In this document: positions 5,101-20,719 of the stretch, one piece after another
Position numbering within the stretch: position 1 is the stretch's first letter
Layout: each line of letters begins with the position of its first letter
Origin: a virus
DNA: 23,733 nucleotides
Virus record (IMG/VR): IMGVR_UViG_3300037189_008369
Location: 1 to 23,733 of that record
Direction: 5' to 3' (one strand)
Made by a program: the position numbers and the translations under genes
The notes under the pieces: generated by a model
Told to the model about the DNA's origin: nothing
The model's input: the letters and a program-made list of their open reading frames with translations, nothing else
Database searches by the model: none

Positions 5101-7262
5101 CTACAATAGGTAAAACAGGTTACTCAGTTGACAATAGTTTCTTTATGGGTAATGATGATAGCAATATGTCACCTAATAGTAGTAGTATTGAAAATAACTT
5201 TATTGCTAATAATACAGATGTTGATTTAAGATTTGTAACTAAATCAGGTGTCTTTACTCCTAGTAACATTACTTTATTTAATAATAATGGAATTGTTTTA
5301 AGTGGTAGTGCTAATTCCATTTCTGCTTTTGGTAGTGATGATGCAACAATTTGGCAATCACTTAATGTTATGTCAATTAATGACACAGGATTAGAAGTAT
5401 TAGATTGTGCTGATGTAACTTCTATGGGTGCTACTGATGTTAAAATGAGAAGTGGTGTTTGGATTTTATCAGCTAATGACTATAATGTTTATTTAAACGA
5501 ACAAAATAATATCGGTTCTATAGCTAACCAATACATAAATGTTGGTACTACTGGAACTGAGTATTTTAATAACTTTTATGCTACTAACTTATATGTTGAT
5601 GTTTATAAATCTCAAGAATCAGTTTATTTAAACAATAGAGGAGTATTTAATCCAGGAACTGGTTATGGCCCCCAAACATTATTAACTGAAGATAGTAATC
5701 AATCAGCTTTTATTAATAATAACAGATTATATATAAGTCAATCTACTGAGACAGAGTTAATTGGTAATAAGTATATGAATGTTAGAAGTGCTACAGATAG
5801 TACTTTTATCAATAATAATGGTAATAGTGTTGTAGATGAGTTATCAATTACTATTACAACTCTTGCTACTTCAAGTCGTCAATCTACTTTTATTAATAAT
5901 TCTATTGGTAGTAGATTTTCTAATGTTACCCAATCTATAATATTTAATAATCACCAAATAAACTCATCAGGTTCTGTTATAAAAACCTTAATTGGTAATA
6001 ACGTAGATACTACAGTTTTAGGAGTTTCACCATTCTTTATACGTGGTAACCATAATTTATCTACAATATTAGGAAATACTGATATTAAAGTAAATAGAGA
6101 TACTACTAACACTCTTATTCTTAATACTGAAGATTGTGAGTTTAGGGCATCTTTAGATAACTCAGCTATTATAAACGATGCTGATTCTTCATATTCTGGT
6201 AGTTCTGTTAGTGGTCTTAATGTTTTAGGTGGGTTATTAAATAAAGTTACAGGTTCTTCAACCTCTACTTTAATTAACAATACTTTATGTACTATTAGAG
6301 GTGGTACAGGTATTCTTTTAGCTAATAATACATTCTCAACATTAGCAGACTCGAGTACTACAACTTACATAAATAATAGTAGTCTTAATACTTCAGGTTC
6401 TATTTCTGCTACTAGTTTTATAAACAACCCTAGTTTAACCTTTTCAGGGTCAAGTGTTGATAAAAGTTTTATAGGTAGTAGTACTAATACTATTACTTTA
6501 AGTGGAACTAACAATACTATTTTAAACAATAGTGGTAGTAGTAATTACAAAGGAGATTATAATTCTTTCTTAAATAATTCTCTTGTAGGTAACTCAGGGT
6601 CAATAAGTAATAGCACTTTTGTTAATAACCATAGATTTTCAATATCTAGTTCTACTGCTAATAGAAATACTTTTATCAACAACTCAGGTTCTTTAGATTC
6701 TGTAGGTAGTGGAAATACTATAATTAATTTAAGAGGAAACAATCACGAAATAGGAGGTAATAAAACTATTATAGGTTATAATGGTACAAATAACCAATTA
6801 AGTTATAGTAACTATTCGTTAGATGAAAATTCTTATGCTACTTTTGCAGGAACACCTGATATTTCAATATACAATAATGGCCCTGCTACTTCAGTTGTTA
6901 GTGAAAGTTTATTTACCGGTAGACAATTCCATTATGGTGCCCAATTCCACGGATATGAATTTGTAGTAGGTGCTTCAGGTTCTACTAATACTTTAAGTGC
7001 CAAATCTGCAAATACCGTATTGTTAGATTGGTTTAGTACTGCTGGAACTTCTACTTTAAATTTACCTTTAGCTTCTGATAATGATGGTAGAAGAATATAT
7101 TTTAAAGCTAATGGTAATATATCAGCTACTAAAGTTATAAGATTAGCTACAACTGGAGGTGAACGTATTGATGCTAATTTAACTTACGATATTAATCGTG
7201 CTTATCAAGCAAATACTTTAATGGCTATGGATGGTCAATGGTGGCTGATAGCTTATAACTAA
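2193..7262 (+). CDS. Tail hub protein fused to a beta-helix-like tail spike
   Basis: This is the largest gene in the window (1689 residues). Residues 1 to about 750 resemble the hub or upper-baseplate protein of Bacteroidota phages: an N-terminal strand, then 'QQFTLPNTPVNNDFFNYAFN' near residues 55-74, then alternating beta segments. A linker (about 750-840) contains GNDDIQVPGHGDPID. From about 830 to 1530 the protein becomes a long, imperfect repeat of short strands ending in Asn-Asn turns (FINNN, FINNS, LINNT, YINNS, FINNP, IINLRGNN). This is what a parallel beta-helix or beta-solenoid with asparagine ladders looks like. The last 90 residues form a different compact domain ending MDGQWWLIAYN. 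Inference: one polypeptide carries both the hub and the host-contact spike. Its start overlaps the previous stop (TAATG). Confidence 0.7.
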   Translation: MAQVIIRVFNAKRIAKPGVPAADWFDLDVDQSTTPLKLDISAVEVGSLGDIYGIGSQQFTLPNTPVNNDFFNYAFNINAEEAGFTFQKTFTCQILVDGGVIASGKLYFDSVTTDNKGGHFYNCTFTDAVSSITDIYKDTLIADLDWNAYNHNFTVNNITGSWDEALFNGDIIYPNVLYGYPENVTTWAWDASYFGLWNGLTYTAASNIPLNAFKPSVRVKTIFDKVFDSINYEYESNFISNSTSSFGTGVTASFSDLYMLMTPDGNLGPLINTPVADGEWYDELKTQTVGYNGGTATANITFQSIFGSSGEVYDPNNMADFNSSNNITFPYGGTYRMEPGLIFRTNTAGYYTIELENITTGEITTLIQGNLAANTDYSHNQAIEFDTTSGLIATVYAYRINIKVSNVPSWSPGDPQLNIATQLKDVNIKIDNAAYDAGVVEIGPQFGDLKVVDFLKGLTEQFNLVWWADKENPRKIYIEPWNAYIKTGVELDWSNKVDYSVKWDISHPSADAEKTIIFANDEDEDSPNQYYIVNDNVPFGSYTYQAQSDYAEGEKEIGKSFFAPTIVKPIPGTNAVSSLSNMVIPHIYTDGYLPRPKVFKFKPRLLFKNGKKDYSFPYRVGGVQLTTYYQMTPSTNLQYDADKFDLNFSSYNWFWGADNVVTYNHYTDNDSFNVFWANYINNIYRNPARKVTLNIKFEPIDLFQFRVNDLIFIDGQTYLINKISGFNLLKPASTQVELIKVLYPSYNKPVFIVEGNDDIQVPGHGDPIDDNIGQEWVFEPDTGDPVRVVPTDIVNNDPISVDSIKKTLIRQQGFLPSSSIVWKEVRWNKQSVNTNIKNNLQYGVNTSGNQSANSINLGTKNEVNSETNNTIIAGNTNIVGLTNTNLNIIGNDNVIGRENNNLVYIGNNSNSGVNFFKNSIIMDIVSGSNTLNNDSVEKTGIFALNKGVILEGAHSGSVVIANVNSGSLITTIGKTGYSVDNSFFMGNDDSNMSPNSSSIENNFIANNTDVDLRFVTKSGVFTPSNITLFNNNGIVLSGSANSISAFGSDDATIWQSLNVMSINDTGLEVLDCADVTSMGATDVKMRSGVWILSANDYNVYLNEQNNIGSIANQYINVGTTGTEYFNNFYATNLYVDVYKSQESVYLNNRGVFNPGTGYGPQTLLTEDSNQSAFINNNRLYISQSTETELIGNKYMNVRSATDSTFINNNGNSVVDELSITITTLATSSRQSTFINNSIGSRFSNVTQSIIFNNHQINSSGSVIKTLIGNNVDTTVLGVSPFFIRGNHNLSTILGNTDIKVNRDTTNTLILNTEDCEFRASLDNSAIINDADSSYSGSSVSGLNVLGGLLNKVTGSSTSTLINNTLCTIRGGTGILLANNTFSTLADSSTTTYINNSSLNTSGSISATSFINNPSLTFSGSSVDKSFIGSSTNTITLSGTNNTILNNSGSSNYKGDYNSFLNNSLVGNSGSISNSTFVNNHRFSISSSTANRNTFINNSGSLDSVGSGNTIINLRGNNHEIGGNKTIIGYNGTNNQLSYSNYSLDENSYATFAGTPDISIYNNGPATSVVSESLFTGRQFHYGAQFHGYEFVVGASGSTNTLSAKSANTVLLDWFSTAGTSTLNLPLASDNDGRRIYFKANGNISATKVIRLATTGGERIDANLTYDINRAYQANTLMAMDGQWWLIAYN

Positions 7263-7288
7263 TTAGTGCCTTATTAACAATATCTGTA
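7262..7288 (+). promoter_or_regulatory. Candidate phage late promoter upstream of the tape measure gene
   Basis: Box 1 is ATTAGTGCC (7262-7270), followed by 10 bases and box 2 TATCTGTA (7281-7288). The same two boxes with identical spacing occur at 10430, 12700 and 16212, always between genes and upstream of a virion gene. If box 2 sits at about -11 to -4, transcription would start near 7292, leaving a leader of about 13 bases before the ATG at 7305. Confidence 0.6.
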
Positions 7289-7304
7289 ATAAATATCTAG
7301 CAAA

Positions 7305-9170
7305 ATGGCCGCAGAAGCAAGAATTGACATAGTAGTTGAAACAGAAGACGTAACAAGGTCAATAGAAAAATTTCAAGGTGCCATTGACATCTTGGGAGGT
7401 TCTGTTGAGACCGTTGTTGGTGGTTTAGCTTTATTTGGTGTTGAAAACAAATATATAGAAAATTTAGAACAAGGTGCTTTAGGTGCTATTGCGTTTGCTG
7501 ATGGTGCTAAACGATTAGCAGATGGTCTTAAAGACTTTATTGGTGAAACTAAATTAGCTTCTGCTGCACAAGCAGTATTTAATGCTGTACAGAATGCCAA
7601 CCCTATATTCTTAATTGTTACAGCACTAGCTGCTGCTACAGCTGCTGTTGTTATATTTACAAACGCTATAGCTGATTCTGCTAAAGAAACTGCTTTAGCT
7701 AATAGTACAGCTGTAGATTTAACTAACTCGTTAAATTCTGGTGCTGCATCTGCTGAACAATTAGGTTTATCTATGCAAGATGTAGCTGATATAGCTGCAC
7801 AAGCTAGAGGTGAAGCTGAAGCACAATTAGAAGTTATAAATTCTCAAGAAGAAACCTTAAAAAGACAAGGTTTAACTGAAGAACAAATTGAGGATTTAAA
7901 AATAAATCAGTTAAGAACTGTTGTTGAAGCAAGTAAGACTGAAGCTAAAGCTAGAAAAGAGGCAATTAAAGGTGATGTTGAAAGAACTAAGACATACTTT
8001 AAAATTACTAAAGCAATAGTAACCTTCTTAACTGCACCTATTGGTGTTATATTAGCTGGTATTGATTTACTTACTGCTGGATTAGCTAAAGCTGGAATTA
8101 TAGCCGAAGAAAATGTAACTAATTTACAACAAGGTTTTACTGAAGGAGTAGCTAAATTATTATTTGACCCTGCAGAAGTAGAAGCAGAAGGACAAGCAGC
8201 AGTTGCTGAAGCAGAAAAACAAGCTAGAGAAGCACAAAATGCTATTGATGGTATTATCAATGCCAGAAATCAAAGAAGACAAGAAGCATCTAAAAAAGCT
8301 AGAGAAGCAGAAGAAAAAGCTGCTGAAAAAGCTAGACAAGAAGCACTTAAAAAAGCTGAAGAAGAACAAGCAAGATTAGACGAAATTGTCAAAGGACAAT
8401 TAGATGACTTAGAAAGAAGAAGGGTTGAAGCGGGTGAACAATATGCTAAAGATTTAGAAACGTTTAAGGATAATGAAGAAGCTAAAGCTGAAGCTAAAAA
8501 GTTTTATGACAAACAATTAGCAGATATAGATGCCGAAAAATTAAAGAGAGAACAAGATGCAGCTGCTGCTAAAAAAGCTATTGATGATAAAGCTGCTGCT
8601 GATGCTGAAAAGACTGCTACCGAGGCAGTTAAAAGAGAACAAGAAAGAACAAAAGCTATAGCAGATGCTGAACAAGATTTATACGATGCTAAAGTAGGAT
8701 TTGCTAATGCAACATTATCTGCTTTAAGTCAAATAGCTGGTGAAAACGAACAGATACAAAATGCTATATTTGCTGTAGAAAAAGCAGTTGCTATTGCTGA
8801 TATTATAACTAAGTTACAAGCAGAAAAAGCTGCAAACGCTGCCTATGGTGCTACATTAGGACCTGGTGTTGGTGATGTTTATAGAGTAACTAAAAACAAA
8901 GCTGCTAATTTAAGGGCTGCTGCTTCTATTGCTACTATTGTTGCTGCTACAATATCTAAATTTAAAAATGGAGGTGGTACTACTGGTGGAGAAGAAGGAG
9001 GTAGTTCAACAGTAACAACTGGTTTTGCTTTAGCAAGTTCTCAACAACAATCAAATTTCCAGACACCTACAGGTACTACAGGAGGGCCAATACAAGCATA
9101 TGTTTTAGCTGGTGATGTATCTGATGGTTTAGAAGCTGAACAAAGAATTAACTCAAGAAGAAAATTATGA
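7305..9170 (+). CDS. Tail tape measure protein
   Basis: This 621-residue protein sets tail length and carries segments that may enter the host membrane during DNA delivery. It has hydrophobic Ala/Val/Ile-rich stretches at about residues 98-122 and 237-267, a long charged coiled coil (about 285-465) of Ala, Glu and Lys, a further hydrophobic helix near 540, and a flexible Gly/Thr/Ser/Gln linker before a conserved-looking C-terminus (VLAGDVSDGLEAEQRI). At 0.15 nm per helical residue the length predicts a tail of roughly 90 nm. It lies after the hub-spike gene rather than before it, which is unusual. A candidate late promoter precedes it, and its stop overlaps the protease start as ATGA. Confidence 0.9.
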   Translation: MAAEARIDIVVETEDVTRSIEKFQGAIDILGGSVETVVGGLALFGVENKYIENLEQGALGAIAFADGAKRLADGLKDFIGETKLASAAQAVFNAVQNANPIFLIVTALAAATAAVVIFTNAIADSAKETALANSTAVDLTNSLNSGAASAEQLGLSMQDVADIAAQARGEAEAQLEVINSQEETLKRQGLTEEQIEDLKINQLRTVVEASKTEAKARKEAIKGDVERTKTYFKITKAIVTFLTAPIGVILAGIDLLTAGLAKAGIIAEENVTNLQQGFTEGVAKLLFDPAEVEAEGQAAVAEAEKQAREAQNAIDGIINARNQRRQEASKKAREAEEKAAEKARQEALKKAEEEQARLDEIVKGQLDDLERRRVEAGEQYAKDLETFKDNEEAKAEAKKFYDKQLADIDAEKLKREQDAAAAKKAIDDKAAADAEKTATEAVKREQERTKAIADAEQDLYDAKVGFANATLSALSQIAGENEQIQNAIFAVEKAVAIADIITKLQAEKAANAAYGATLGPGVGDVYRVTKNKAANLRAAASIATIVAATISKFKNGGGTTGGEEGGSSTVTTGFALASSQQQSNFQTPTGTTGGPIQAYVLAGDVSDGLEAEQRINSRRKL

Positions 9171-15216: not shown

Positions 15217-15545
15217 AAGAACTTCTAAATGCTGTAGGGGGCAAATCGATAGACCAGGTAATAGATATGTTTATAGAAAAAGATATTGAAATATATGAAC
15301 AACATAAAGACCAAATACCTTATTCTAAAGCAGACTATTTATCTTTACACCTAATTGACTTAATCACTAACCAACATAAATTAATAAAAAAATTAATTAA
15401 GGCAACTTTAAAAACTGAGATAAATAATATAGAAAAATTTGCTGCGTATTATAACAAAAGAATAGCTGAAGAAACAAGATTTGTATATCAATTAAAATTA
15501 CCAGCATTAAAGAAAATTGAGTTGCCAAAATTAAAGTCTATCTAG
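15213..15545 (+). CDS. Hypothetical helical protein
   Basis: This 110-residue protein is rich in Lys, Ile and Leu and predicted mostly helical, with no motif I recognise. Residues 1-40 and 45-95 look like two amphipathic helical segments. It overlaps the preceding small membrane protein gene by 4 bases (ATGA) and is followed by a strong terminator, so it ends the portal-connector transcription unit. It could act with the small membrane protein, but nothing in the sequence shows how. Confidence 0.6.
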   Translation: MKELLNAVGGKSIDQVIDMFIEKDIEIYEQHKDQIPYSKADYLSLHLIDLITNQHKLIKKLIKATLKTEINNIEKFAAYYNKRIAEETRFVYQLKLPALKKIELPKLKSI

Positions 15546-15571
15546 ATGCCCCCTTAGTTTAGAAGACAAAA

Positions 15572-15603
15572 GAAGCGTCCTCGTTAGGACGCTTCCCTTT
15601 TTT
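15572..15603 (+). terminator. Strong terminator, possibly bidirectional
   Basis: A perfect 10-bp stem (15572-15581 with 15586-15595) with a CGTT loop is followed by CC and six T. On the minus strand the stem is followed by a shorter T-rich run (TCTTTTGTCTT), so it may also end the antisense zinc-ribbon gene. Confidence 0.93.
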
Positions 15604-15620
15604 AGAATAATATGGCAGTA

Positions 15621-15881
15621 TTATTTCCTTTTATATCTTAATAAGCTGGGTAAATTAAACACTTGGGCATACTGTTCTATAGCAGCATTAAAGTGTTCTT
15701 TTTCATTAATATAACCATCTACATTATACCATCTTTCTTTATTTCTTAATTTAGACTGGTTAGCTGCTTCTTTAACACATTCTTTACAGTGGCAATTGTA
15801 ACCATCTGAATATCTTTTATTGGGGTAAAAGTTAAATATCTGTAATAGTCTTTTACATCCAGAACATAATTTTTCTTCCAT
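15621..15881 (-). CDS. Zinc-ribbon protein, HNH-endonuclease-like N-terminal domain
   Basis: This 86-residue protein on the opposite strand from all its neighbours has two CxxC pairs (CSGC and CKEC) about 24 residues apart, joined by a segment like FNFYPNKRYSDGYNCH. This matches the zinc-binding N-terminal domain often found in phage HNH endonucleases and other DNA-binding proteins. No HNH catalytic motif is present. I chose the ATG at 15881, just downstream of a candidate promoter box, rather than the in-frame ATG at 15965, which would extend toward the structured RNA region and adds only a Lys-rich stretch. It could be a small DNA-binding regulator or the remnant of a homing-type nuclease. 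Confidence 0.6.
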   Translation of the reverse strand: MEEKLCSGCKRLLQIFNFYPNKRYSDGYNCHCKECVKEAANQSKLRNKERWYNVDGYINEKEHFNAAIEQYAQVFNLPSLLRYKRK

Positions 15882-15886
15882 ACTTA

Positions 15887-15915
15887 TAAATATATGGTTC
15901 TTTTTCAAAATCGAT
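15887..15915 (-). promoter_or_regulatory. Candidate promoter (ATCGATTTT class) for the zinc-ribbon gene
   Basis: Read on the minus strand: ATCGATTTT (15915-15907), 12 bases, TATATTTA (15894-15887), then ATG at 15881. The same boxes and spacing occur at 19793 and 20982. The very short distance to the ATG implies a nearly leaderless transcript. Confidence 0.55.
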
Positions 15916-15969
15916 TCTTTCTTTAAAAGCTTTTTATAAAAGATGCGTTTTTGACTCCCTCCCATATAT

Positions 15970-16196
15970 GTATCACCGTCATAAGGTCGTCCAGCTGGAT
16001 ACTAGGTAATGCTAAAAGACCCAGCTTAGTCGAAAATACCGTGACAGGGTTTAAACAGACAACCAAATAGGTTGGACTCCCACGAGATGTGAAAGCTGCA
16101 ATGAATACCAGGTTACAATGCCTGGCGGTGAAACTCCGAAGGGCTTGCAGTATAAGCATAAAATCTCAAAAATGCCTTTTGGGTATATACCCGGGC
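15970..16196 (+). ncRNA. Candidate structured non-coding RNA of unknown class
   Basis: About 380 bases between the zinc-ribbon start and the tail fibre hold no convincing gene. Part of it is much richer in GC (about 48% over 15991-16150). Complementary arms are: 15993-15998 with 16021-16026 (6 bp); 16060-16064 with 16070-16074 (5 bp); 16084-16088 with 16163-16167 (5 bp), which encloses 16096-16101 with 16145-16150 (6 bp), which in turn encloses 16108-16112 with 16121-16125 (5 bp) and a short 16126-16128 with 16136-16138 helix. A last hairpin pairs 16174-16177 with 16193-16196 around a GGGTATATACCC palindrome. Single-stranded parts are A-rich on the plus strand, as in folded RNAs. I cannot assign a known class. 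Boundaries and strand are estimates. Confidence 0.55.
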
Positions 16197-16211
16197 TATT
16201 GGCTTGCTTAA

Positions 16212-16238
16212 TTTAGTGCCCTTTACCTTATATCTATT
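16212..16238 (+). promoter_or_regulatory. Candidate phage late promoter upstream of the tail fibre
   Basis: Box 1 TTTAGTGCC (16212-16220), 10 bases, box 2 TATCTATT (16231-16238), with the ATG at 16260. Spacing is identical to the sites at 7262, 10430 and 12700. It follows directly after the structured RNA region. Confidence 0.6.
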
Positions 16239-16259
16239 TATGTTAATACTTTTTCTATT

Positions 16260-18617
16260 ATGGCATTACCTGATTTAACTGGAAATAAGATAAAAGATAC
16301 CTATCAGAGAGTCGTTCAGACAGGAGATGGGAAGACGTTTTATAATGGGACAGGTTCCCAGGTTTCTATAGTTACTAACCCTTATACTGGTTCCTTAGCT
16401 ATCTCAGGTTCTATAGTTCTTAATGGACCTATTAATATAGGGCTGAATAATTTAAACGATGTAACTATTACCTCTGTCCAGCCCTATGATTTATTAGTTA
16501 GAAATTTAGCTAATAATGACTGGGTAAATACAGCTAATCCAGGAGGTGATTATACCTGGGCTGGTAATAATACATTTGACCAACAAACAGTTCATAATAC
16601 AGGGATATTAACAAAAGGTAATATAGAAGTAGATGCCCACTTAGTCCACAATCTTGGTGGAGAAATTAGCCCAGGTAGAGATTATTGGTTTGCTACAGCA
16701 TCAATAGGTAAAATTAGAACATTCCAGAATAGTATAGAATTTTGTGATGAATCAACTAAAGCTACTTCAGCTGTACTTTCAGTTGAAGGCCCAAACTTTA
16801 TTATTAAAAATAATGCAGGTGCTAAAACAGCTATATCAGGTGCTAATGCAAACTTTACTAACGTAGTTCAAGCTGGTTCATTTATAGGACCATTAACTGG
16901 TACTGCTAGCTGGGCAACTAATGCTGTTACAGCTTCAAACGCTAGAACTGCTTCCTTTGTTACAACTGCCCAGACAGCATCTTATGTTCTCAATGCTATA
17001 TCCTCATCCTTTGCAGCAACAGCTTCATTTGTTAGAACAGCACAAACTGCTTCTTATGTTCTTAATGCTGTAAGTAGTTCCTTTGCAACTACAGCATCTT
17101 ATGCTTTAAATGGAGGTGTTACTCAAATAATAGCAGGAACAAACGTTACAATATCTCCAGTAGGTGGAACAGGTGCTGTTACAATCAACTCATCAGGGAC
17201 AGGTGGAAGCACAGATACAGGTTCACTCCTTAGAACAGCTTCAGTTAATCTAAACACTATCACCTTCACTAAAGGTGATGGTTCAACTTTCCCAATCACT
17301 GTTGATACAGGCAGTGGAGGAGGTGTTACTCAACTTTTAGCAGGTGCTAATATCTCACTATCCCCAACATCTGGTGTAGGACAAGTCACTATTACTTCTA
17401 CAGGTGGAGGTGGGGGTGGATTTAATACTGCTACTGGGTCTTATGGTAGTTTTTATGATACAACTACTCAAACCAATCCCGTAGCTAATGTGCCCCGTTC
17501 AATGTCCTTCAACTCAACAGATATTTCAAACGGGGTATCTATTTCAGGTTCAACAAATCCCTTTAACACCTACATCAAAGTAGCTAATGCAGGGGTATAT
17601 GATATACAATTCTCAGCCCAGTTAGATAAAACAGATTTTGGGTCAGATAGCATAATTATTTGGATAAGGAAAAACGGAATAGATTTAGCTGAAACTGCTA
17701 CAGATGCTACTTTACAAGGAAATAACGCTAAAGCAGTAGCTGCTTGGAACTGGTTTGTGAACGCAGCAGCTGGGGATTATTTCCAATTAATGTGGTTTTC
17801 TCCTGATACTGATGTTAGATTATACTCACAAACAGCCACTGCTAACCACCCTGGTATACCATCTGTAATATTAACAGCAAATCGTGTAGACCAATTCTTA
17901 AGTAATACAGGTTCTTTTACAGGTTCCTTTACTGGTTCTCTATTTGGAACAGCTAGTTGGGCTAATAACGCTTTAACTGCTTCATTCCTCCCAGTTGGAA
18001 CTTATAACATAACCTCAAGTTGGGCAACTAATGCTTTAACTGCTTCAAACCTAGCACCAGCTATAGCTAATAATACTGATAATAGAGTATTAACTGCAAC
18101 AGGTAATGGTTCTATTAATGGTGAAGCCAACCTAACATTTGATGGTTCTTTATTAGATATAATAGGTGATATTCAGTTTAATGAAAATAGAATAAGAACA
18201 TCAAGTACAACAGTAGGTCAACCTGGTAAAGGTGCTGATTTAGCATATGATTGGGGTAACTTCACAACAACACCTACAGCAGGAAGAATAGTTTATTTTG
18301 CTAGTGGTTCAGGTGGATTTGGTTGGAGGGATGCTTTAGCAAGTGCTACAGGTAGTAGTATTGGACCATTAGGTGTAGCTACTAATGCTGCTTCTCAAGA
18401 TGAAATAATGTTAAGAGGTACTGTTAGAGTAAGTGGTTCACTATCTGGATTAGCAGCAGGCCAAGTAGTATATTTAAACAACGCAGTATCAGGTGGAGTA
18501 ACAGGTACAGCACCATCAACAACTGGTCACGTAGTTAGAATAATAGGTTATGTTATTAGCCCAACAGACAACACAATGTACTTTAACCCTGATTTCTCTT
18601 ATATAACAAGAACATAA
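16260..18617 (+). CDS. Tail fibre with ATAS-type repeats and a C1q/jelly-roll-like domain
   Basis: This 785-residue protein is a likely receptor-binding or side-fibre protein. The N-terminal 190 residues probably attach it to the virion. Residues about 216-284 are short repeats of the ATASF/TASYVLNA type (for example ASFVTTAQTASYVLNA), known from fibres of many aquatic phages and expected to form an extended trimeric shaft; two more copies (TASWANNALTASF, SSWATNALTAS) occur near 560-590. Glycine-rich linkers precede a jelly-roll-like domain at about 415-545 (VPRSMSFNST through VILTANRV). The C-terminal domain carries AGQVVYLNNAVSGGV and GYVISPTDNTMYFNP. Domain names are inferred from pattern. 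Its stop overlaps the next start (TAATG). Confidence 0.78.
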   Translation: MALPDLTGNKIKDTYQRVVQTGDGKTFYNGTGSQVSIVTNPYTGSLAISGSIVLNGPINIGLNNLNDVTITSVQPYDLLVRNLANNDWVNTANPGGDYTWAGNNTFDQQTVHNTGILTKGNIEVDAHLVHNLGGEISPGRDYWFATASIGKIRTFQNSIEFCDESTKATSAVLSVEGPNFIIKNNAGAKTAISGANANFTNVVQAGSFIGPLTGTASWATNAVTASNARTASFVTTAQTASYVLNAISSSFAATASFVRTAQTASYVLNAVSSSFATTASYALNGGVTQIIAGTNVTISPVGGTGAVTINSSGTGGSTDTGSLLRTASVNLNTITFTKGDGSTFPITVDTGSGGGVTQLLAGANISLSPTSGVGQVTITSTGGGGGGFNTATGSYGSFYDTTTQTNPVANVPRSMSFNSTDISNGVSISGSTNPFNTYIKVANAGVYDIQFSAQLDKTDFGSDSIIIWIRKNGIDLAETATDATLQGNNAKAVAAWNWFVNAAAGDYFQLMWFSPDTDVRLYSQTATANHPGIPSVILTANRVDQFLSNTGSFTGSFTGSLFGTASWANNALTASFLPVGTYNITSSWATNALTASNLAPAIANNTDNRVLTATGNGSINGEANLTFDGSLLDIIGDIQFNENRIRTSSTTVGQPGKGADLAYDWGNFTTTPTAGRIVYFASGSGGFGWRDALASATGSSIGPLGVATNAASQDEIMLRGTVRVSGSLSGLAAGQVVYLNNAVSGGVTGTAPSTTGHVVRIIGYVISPTDNTMYFNPDFSYITRT

Positions 18618-19774: not shown

Positions 19775-19792
19775 AACTTCTTTTTAGAAGAA

Positions 19793-19821
19793 ATCGATTT
19801 TGAAAAAACCTCATATATTTA
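19793..19821 (+). promoter_or_regulatory. Candidate promoter (ATCGATTTT class) for the holin-like gene
   Basis: ATCGATTTT (19793-19801), 12 bases, TATATTTA (19814-19821), then ATG at 19827. Box 1 lies within a 10-base palindrome, AAATCGATTT. The match to the minus-strand site at 15887-15915 extends through the spacer (a GAAAAA run) and up to the ATG. Confidence 0.58.
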
Positions 19822-20212: not shown

Positions 20213-20719
20213 ATGACAATTAACCAAACAATCGAATTGGCTTACCCTGAATTAATTAAGATGGTAACTGCCATAACTAAAAACAAAGTATTAGCAACAG
20301 ACCTAATACACGACAGTATCGCTGATTTTAAATCTATGGCTGTTATAAAACAAAAGAAAATTAAAAAAGACGATAGAATAAAAGAATATATCTATCAGAT
20401 AGCCAAAACGCAATACTTCTCATCCTCATCTACATTCCACTATACTTACAGAGAAAATCAAGTATTAAAAGTAAAGGAAGAAACGAATGTAGAACAATTA
20501 GAAATAGAGGATTTAGATACCCAGAACACAAACGAATTAAGGTTAATAATGAGTGCAATAAATAGATACTGCACTAAATTCGAAAAACAATTAATCGCAG
20601 ACAGATTTATAGAAAATATGACATATAAGGAAATAGGATACAAACATAGTATGCCTACTTACTTAGTGACAGAAAAAGTTAAATCTGTAATAAATAAAAT
20701 AAAAACAAATGTACTATAA
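20213..20719 (+). CDS. Sigma-70-like (ECF-type) transcription factor
   Basis: This 168-residue protein has the two-domain plan of a small sigma factor. The N-terminal half contains ATDLIHDSIADF (about residues 29-40), like the sigma region 2 helix, then IKEYIYQIAKTQYFSSSSTFHYTYRE, a pattern typical of sigma-like proteins in Bacteroidota phages. The C-terminal half (about 117-168) has FEKQLIADRFIENMTYKEIGYKHSMPTYLVTEKVKSVI, a region-4-like helix-turn-helix. It could direct host RNA polymerase to phage promoters. I chose the ATG at 20213 rather than an in-frame TTG at 20177, which lies in the terminator. Upstream is a TATATTTA box like that of the ATCGATTTT-class sites. The family call is moderately sure; the target promoters are unknown. 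Confidence 0.68.
   Translation: MTINQTIELAYPELIKMVTAITKNKVLATDLIHDSIADFKSMAVIKQKKIKKDDRIKEYIYQIAKTQYFSSSSTFHYTYRENQVLKVKEETNVEQLEIEDLDTQNTNELRLIMSAINRYCTKFEKQLIADRFIENMTYKEIGYKHSMPTYLVTEKVKSVINKIKTNVL

Follow-up and report, generated by a model that had tools for sequence, protein, structure and literature searches.

The RNA locus

The window, meaning the whole stretch of DNA analysed, is a 23.7 kb virus sequence with portal, capsid, tail and terminase genes. Judged by the portal protein, its nearest named phages are the Nonlabens phages P12024S/L, at 26% identity. The locus considered here has an endonuclease-like ORF (minus strand) on one side and a tail-fibre gene (plus strand) on the other, and the features that bear on it are the following:

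15572..15595, plus strand: intrinsic terminator of the upstream operon, a 10-pair stem followed by a T run
15621..15881, minus strand: zinc-ribbon endonuclease-like ORF, likely start ATG 15881 (PHROG endonuclease VII/HNH, E 3e-9 to 1e-6)
15945..15973, plus strand: promoter-like element GCGTTTTTGACTCCCTCCCATATATGTAT, directly 5' of the RNA; a similar element stands before two window ORFs
15977..16212, plus strand: structured non-coding RNA type I, ~235 nt (match to covariance model R2, covariation; exact ends inferred)
16260..18617, plus strand: tail-fibre-like gene, a repetitive tail-type protein with a weak PHROG match only
20216..20719, plus strand: ECF-sigma-like gene (phrog_1740 sigma factor, E 4.8e-5), homologues of which follow the RNA elsewhere

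The region had been singled out, from its letters alone, as a GC-rich candidate structured RNA at 15970-16196. This stretch has the highest G+C among the 227-base windows sampled, and the enrichment is real at a slightly lower figure than the ~48% claimed (45.4%, against 33.5% for the window). The proposed limits were nearly right; the RNA extends to ~16212. The lack of a convincing reading frame was borne out, as no frame remains open over the region across all homologues, and a 78-aa minus-strand ORF (15923-16159) is not conserved.

Distant homologues in uncultured viruses

The only close homologue of the region that was found, L004, is 79% identical over it. Identity is unevenly spread, reaching 92% in the promoter-like box, 85% in the core and 95% in the 3' block, and 55% in the upstream spacer. 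A covariance model of the window and L004 (R1) matched a distant phage at E 9e-15, and a degenerate pattern search supplied further members; the homologues are uncultured viral contigs. A second model (R2) was built from a sequence-only alignment of three distant members (L100, L102, L099), with the window left out. R2 recovered the window at E 2e-21, over 15974-16161, and L004 at E 5e-22, and added three members (L150, L155, L145). The family thus comprises eight distinct sequences with core identities of 46-84%, and as judged from these alignments shape is kept more than sequence, in at least seven other phages.

Matches in L208 and L144 and a second match in L155 (E 0.09-0.6) were left out of the member count. 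At L208:10851-10964, the P3-like hairpin CTTGT-AAATA-ACAAG is followed by GTCTCC, ~650 bases before a sigma-like gene; this is a possible, very distant family member with a weak model match (E 0.6). A pattern scan of viral contigs re-found the known members, and its remaining matches scored nothing with the covariance model. Among bacterial genomes, the pattern search gave weak, chance-level matches only, on 18 contigs, and under strict filters, run without a positive control, the covariance model had no match in 395 Bacteroidota genomes. The phage and plasmid records searched held no match to the RNA, and ARAGORN found no tRNA or tmRNA. In Rfam 15, the window and its homologues matched nothing at the gathering threshold, and no family came near threshold even at E<=10.

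A conserved fold with compensatory changes

The fold has seven helices, with P1 enclosing P2, a P3 hairpin, and P4 enclosing P5 and P6. Its parts in the window, all on the plus strand, are:

15978-16151: core P1-P6, followed by a variable linker and then the conserved 3' block
15978..15982: P1 5' strand GTCAT, pairing with 16041-16045; covariation
15988..15998: 5' strands of P2a (15988-15991) and P2b (15993-15998), with a bulged C between them; covariation
15999..16020: P2 loop ATACTAGGTAATGCTAAAAGAC, near-identical in 5/8 members, similar in L150, different in L145/L155
16021..16032: 3' strands of P2b (16021-16026) and P2a (16029-16032), with TA between them; covariation
16041..16045: P1 3' strand GTGAC; covariation
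16047..16081: P3, with P3a 16047-16049/16079-16081 and P3b 16060-16064/16070-16074
16065-16069: P3 loop AAATA, invariant
16095-16101/16145-16151: P4, enclosing P5 and P6; covariation, recovered by single-sequence folding
16108-16112/16121-16125: P5, inside P4; covariation, single-sequence folding
16126-16128/16136-16138: P6, loop GGTGAAA..TCC, inside P4; covariation, single-sequence folding
16139..16144: junction AAGGGC, between P6 and the P4 3' strand
16187..16199: 3' block ATACCCGGGCTAT, in 8/8 homologues with small changes

Over the eight sequences, 91.9% of cells pair, compared with 37-42% when the partners are slid, and 31 of the 39 pairs are changed on both sides (75 double-change cells), a count that none of 500 shuffles matched and that fell to 5-11 with slid pairing. 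Since this alignment was fitted to the model, it leans towards the fold; that of the three distant members, made by MAFFT from sequence only, was not so fitted. In the latter, 95.8% of cells are paired (slid controls 36-45%) and 20 of 42 pairs are changed on both sides (0/500 shuffles), an agreement that argues against an alignment artefact. A manual alignment of five sequences, itself fitted to the fold, has 186 of 190 cells paired. Among the helices of the eight-sequence alignment, both-side changes affect nine of the ten P2 pairs (97.4% paired) and all five P3b pairs. P1 appears as GUCAU/GUGAC, GCCAU/AUGGC, CGCAC/GUGUG, UGAAC/GUUCA, GAUAGC/GCUAUC and UGACGG/CCGUCA, and P3b as CAACC/GGUUG, UCUGU/ACAGA, CUCAC/GUGAG and GCUAC/GUAGU. 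The excess of G-U over A-C cells (23 to 11 and 9 to 1) favours the plus strand.

Single-sequence folding of the window core recovered 30 of 34 pairs, and most pairs were recovered in seven of the eight members, including the window, L100 and L099 (20/36 in L150). The minimum-energy fold of a longer stretch differs from the conserved fold, which appears when the core is folded alone. Folding energies did not exceed those of shuffled sequence (z -0.4 for 15960-16215 on the plus strand, -1.2 on the minus strand, -1.0 for the core), and it is the comparative evidence, not folding energy, that sets the RNA above chance.

The complementary arms listed in the sequence-only reading, where checked, were all present and perfectly complementary. 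Homologues support CTGCAA/TTGCAG (16096-16101/16145-16150) as P4, AGCTGG/CCAGCT (15993-15998/16021-16026) as P2b and CAACC/GGTTG (16060-16064/16070-16074) as P3b. The outer helix GAGAT/ATCTC (16084-16088/16163-16167) was discarded; it is kept in the window and L004 alone and lies outside the conserved fold. Also rejected was the pairing ATATATGG/CCATATAT (15891/15963) of the window and L004, which represents two copies of the promoter-like element on opposite strands. A weak candidate pseudoknot may form between AAGGG(C/U), 3' of P6, and the ACCC in the 3' block; three to five pairs can form in 8/8 members, and L099 carries a compensatory change.

A lack of compensation among homologues, or a conserved frame through the region, had been set beforehand as grounds for rejecting the RNA; both were looked for and neither was found. 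The comparative sequence evidence shows a new structured non-coding RNA with the conserved fold P1[P2] P3 P4[P5,P6], on the plus strand. Its conserved secondary structure with compensatory changes marks it as a new RNA family, here called type I. That there is no functional RNA, with the arms arising by chance in a G+C-rich intergenic stretch or the conservation reflecting a DNA or protein signal, agrees with folding energies inside the shuffled range, but in view of the covariation, the distant homologues and the absence of a conserved frame it is extremely improbable.

Promoter-like elements and terminators

A TAT-rich box lies a few bases 5' of P1 in all eight members. In four of them, read by eye, a TTG stands 20 bases before TATATTTAT-like boxes, and in the other four CGATTTTGA-like elements lie closer in (also by eye). 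The flavobacterial -7 consensus is TAnnTTTG (PMC9723704), and the TATATTTAT-like boxes, as read by eye, come near it. The window has three copies of CG(A/T)TTTTGA-N7..10-(C)CATATAT(T/G)TAT: at 15885-15910 (minus strand) before the endonuclease-like ORF, at 15945-15973 (plus) before the RNA, and at 19779-19820 (plus) before another ORF that lies at ~19827. The element is possibly a phage-specific promoter class, read by a phage sigma-like factor.

Strong terminators were seen by eye upstream of the RNA in several other members too, and none was found 3' of it. A candidate tail-fibre promoter lies 3' of the RNA, at about 16205-16240 (by eye).

Genes beside the RNA

The next gene begins 11-177 bases from the 3' end of the RNA. 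In four of the eight phages (L099, L102, L150, L155) an ECF-sigma-like gene is directly next, and in L150 and L099 only 11-18 nt separate the RNA end from its start codon. Two further phages have such a gene after one small ORF: in L145 this ORF is DUF3820-like (by eye), and in L100 the contig ends in a partial sigma-like gene that comes after the small ORF or overlaps it. In the window and L004 it is the tail fibre that comes after the RNA, and the sigma-like gene of the window lies 4 kb further on, without the RNA.

The downstream gene is likely an ECF-sigma-like regulator. Four of six proteins have PHROG matches to sigma factors (E 5e-5 to 3e-3), and the best PDB matches of a predicted model of the L145 homologue are ECF sigma factors (Foldseek E 0.0095 at best), with sigmaE region 4 matched at probability 1.00. 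A chain from RNA-guided transcription ranks 26 among the fold matches of the ECF-sigma-like model; a Cas12-type gene was not seen in the parts that were read.

HNH or endonuclease-VII-like genes adjoin the RNA in the window, L004, L100 and L145. The endonuclease-type genes beside the RNA differ in family (endonuclease VII-like, HNH_3), as seen in the window at 15621-15881 (minus strand), at L100:689-1423 and at L145:16510-17169. They are possibly free-standing homing endonucleases that help the cassette to move.

A possible second RNA type in the same slot

Six phages (L136, L166, L173, L190, L197, L199) have the sigma-like gene without a type I match, and another conserved, structured-looking stretch, here type II, occupies the slot. 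By eye it reads ACTTC...TTGG..., then a stem such as CCTCAG...CTGAGG, then ATATGGGGG, and its stems vary with apparent compensation (by eye). The type II stretches had no match near threshold in Rfam. They lie at:

L136:10308-10472, before the sigma-like gene
L173:6382-6557, before the sigma-like gene
L166:8233-8416, before the sigma-like gene
L190:13501-13662, before the sigma-like gene
L197:10672-10864, before the sigma-like gene
L199:12526-12746, before the sigma-like gene
L002:6892-7163, a type II-like stretch before the tail fibre

L002 is a close relative of the window, and has its type II-like stretch where the window and L004 have type I. RNA type and sigma sequence have no obvious correspondence. 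The same slot holds long self-complementary GCTACGTAGC-type repeats in L142 (about 7000-7150) and CACGAG-type repeats in L198 (about 7280-7480).

From the head genes to the tail fibre, the window (15542-16211) and L002 (5120-7113) have largely different sequence, with flanks that are 88% and 70% identical. In comparisons of close relatives, this stretch appears as a hot spot of cassette exchange.

Possible functions of the RNA

In the sequences, the RNA follows a promoter-like box and precedes the first gene of what is likely a transcription unit. This arrangement, with no strong terminator in between, argues for a leader on that unit. We give about even odds to a promoter-proximal leader RNA that acts on its own operon. 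Transcription would begin at P1 or slightly ahead of it, which would make the RNA the 5' leader of the operon that follows, headed by the ECF-sigma-like regulator in most phages and, in the window, by the tail fibre. As a cis-acting element, the RNA would influence RNA polymerase or the early translation of the unit. Because the RNA is not tied to a single downstream gene, an operon-level effect (antitermination, pausing or polymerase modification) is likelier than gene-specific translational control. The leader is favoured by the closeness of the sigma-like start codon to the RNA in L150 and L099, and by a strong terminator upstream with no strong one downstream. It is weakened by the window clade, whose sigma-like gene lacks the RNA and whose tail fibre, preceded by the RNA, perhaps has its own promoter. 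The variety of downstream genes (sigma-like, tail fibre, DUF3820-like, small ORF) would suit a stand-alone RNA too, and further weakening comes from the different structured-looking stretch that can fill the slot and from the unremarkable single-sequence folding energies.

Nearly as likely, at somewhat less than an even chance, is that this phage RNA stands alone, has its own promoter and acts in trans by binding host RNA polymerase, other RNAs or a phage protein, for example the sigma-like factor; its position upstream of regulator genes would then be incidental. The diversity of downstream genes points to an effect on the operon as a whole or in trans, and the stand-alone RNA is consistent with the RNA's own promoter-like element, the four kinds of downstream gene and the candidate tail-fibre promoter behind the RNA. 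It also agrees with the position of the window and L004 copy, which lies beside an endonuclease ORF, with head genes on one side and tail-fibre genes on the other, away from sigma. It fits less well with the absence of a convincing terminator at the 3' end and with the close start codons in L150 and L099.

It is improbable that the RNA is a ribozyme (a self-cleaving one, or else a degenerate self-splicing intron) with a link to the adjacent homing-type endonuclease genes. The complex junction fold, the conserved loops and the endonuclease genes in four members would suit a ribozyme, but Intron_gpI and all ribozyme families were unmatched at E<=10, the RNA lies between genes in 8/8 contigs and interrupts none, and L102, L150 and L099 have no recognisable endonuclease beside it in the part read. 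A leader or a stand-alone non-coding RNA fits the context better.

Relation to known phage RNAs

The closest functional model for the proposed leader, by analogy and not by descent, is the put RNA of HK022, a processive antitermination leader of ~70 nt with two stem-loops (PMC9378689). It lies just downstream of a promoter (putL) and acts on the RNA polymerase transcribing the operon behind (PMC9378689). Both are phage stem-loop RNAs, type I with a putative promoter-proximal position (a promoter-like box directly before P1 in every member), but type I has ~235 nt and seven helices, and no relation in sequence or structure was seen.

GOLLD, ROOL and HEARO are complex non-coding RNAs associated with phages or mobile elements and first known from comparative genomics. 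Type I resembles them as a complex structured RNA of such elements, and differs in that no Rfam family comes near threshold for it. Group I introns also often have adjacent (homing) endonuclease genes; unlike them, type I lacks an Intron_gpI match and lies between genes. No known riboswitch aptamer in Rfam came near threshold (E<=10), and no description of the RNA was found in open-access papers. By sequence comparison, the RNA belongs to a new family of structured phage RNAs that none of the catalogues searched contains.

Phages rarely carry structured RNAs of such size and complexity, and among the known examples several are still unexplained. With its strong covariation, its defined fold, its repeated association with sigma-like genes and a covariance model able to detect distant members, this RNA lends itself directly to the design of transcription, binding and mutant experiments. 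The apparent exchange of type I and type II among close relatives suggests selection for an RNA at this place, not for one sequence. A more speculative reading, which we consider rather unlikely, is that phages of this group have a dedicated slot behind the promoter of the regulator operon, filled by unrelated structured RNAs (type I here, type II in close relatives) that would be interchangeable components of a phage transcription switch operating together with an ECF-like sigma factor. We know of no described counterpart of such a switch.
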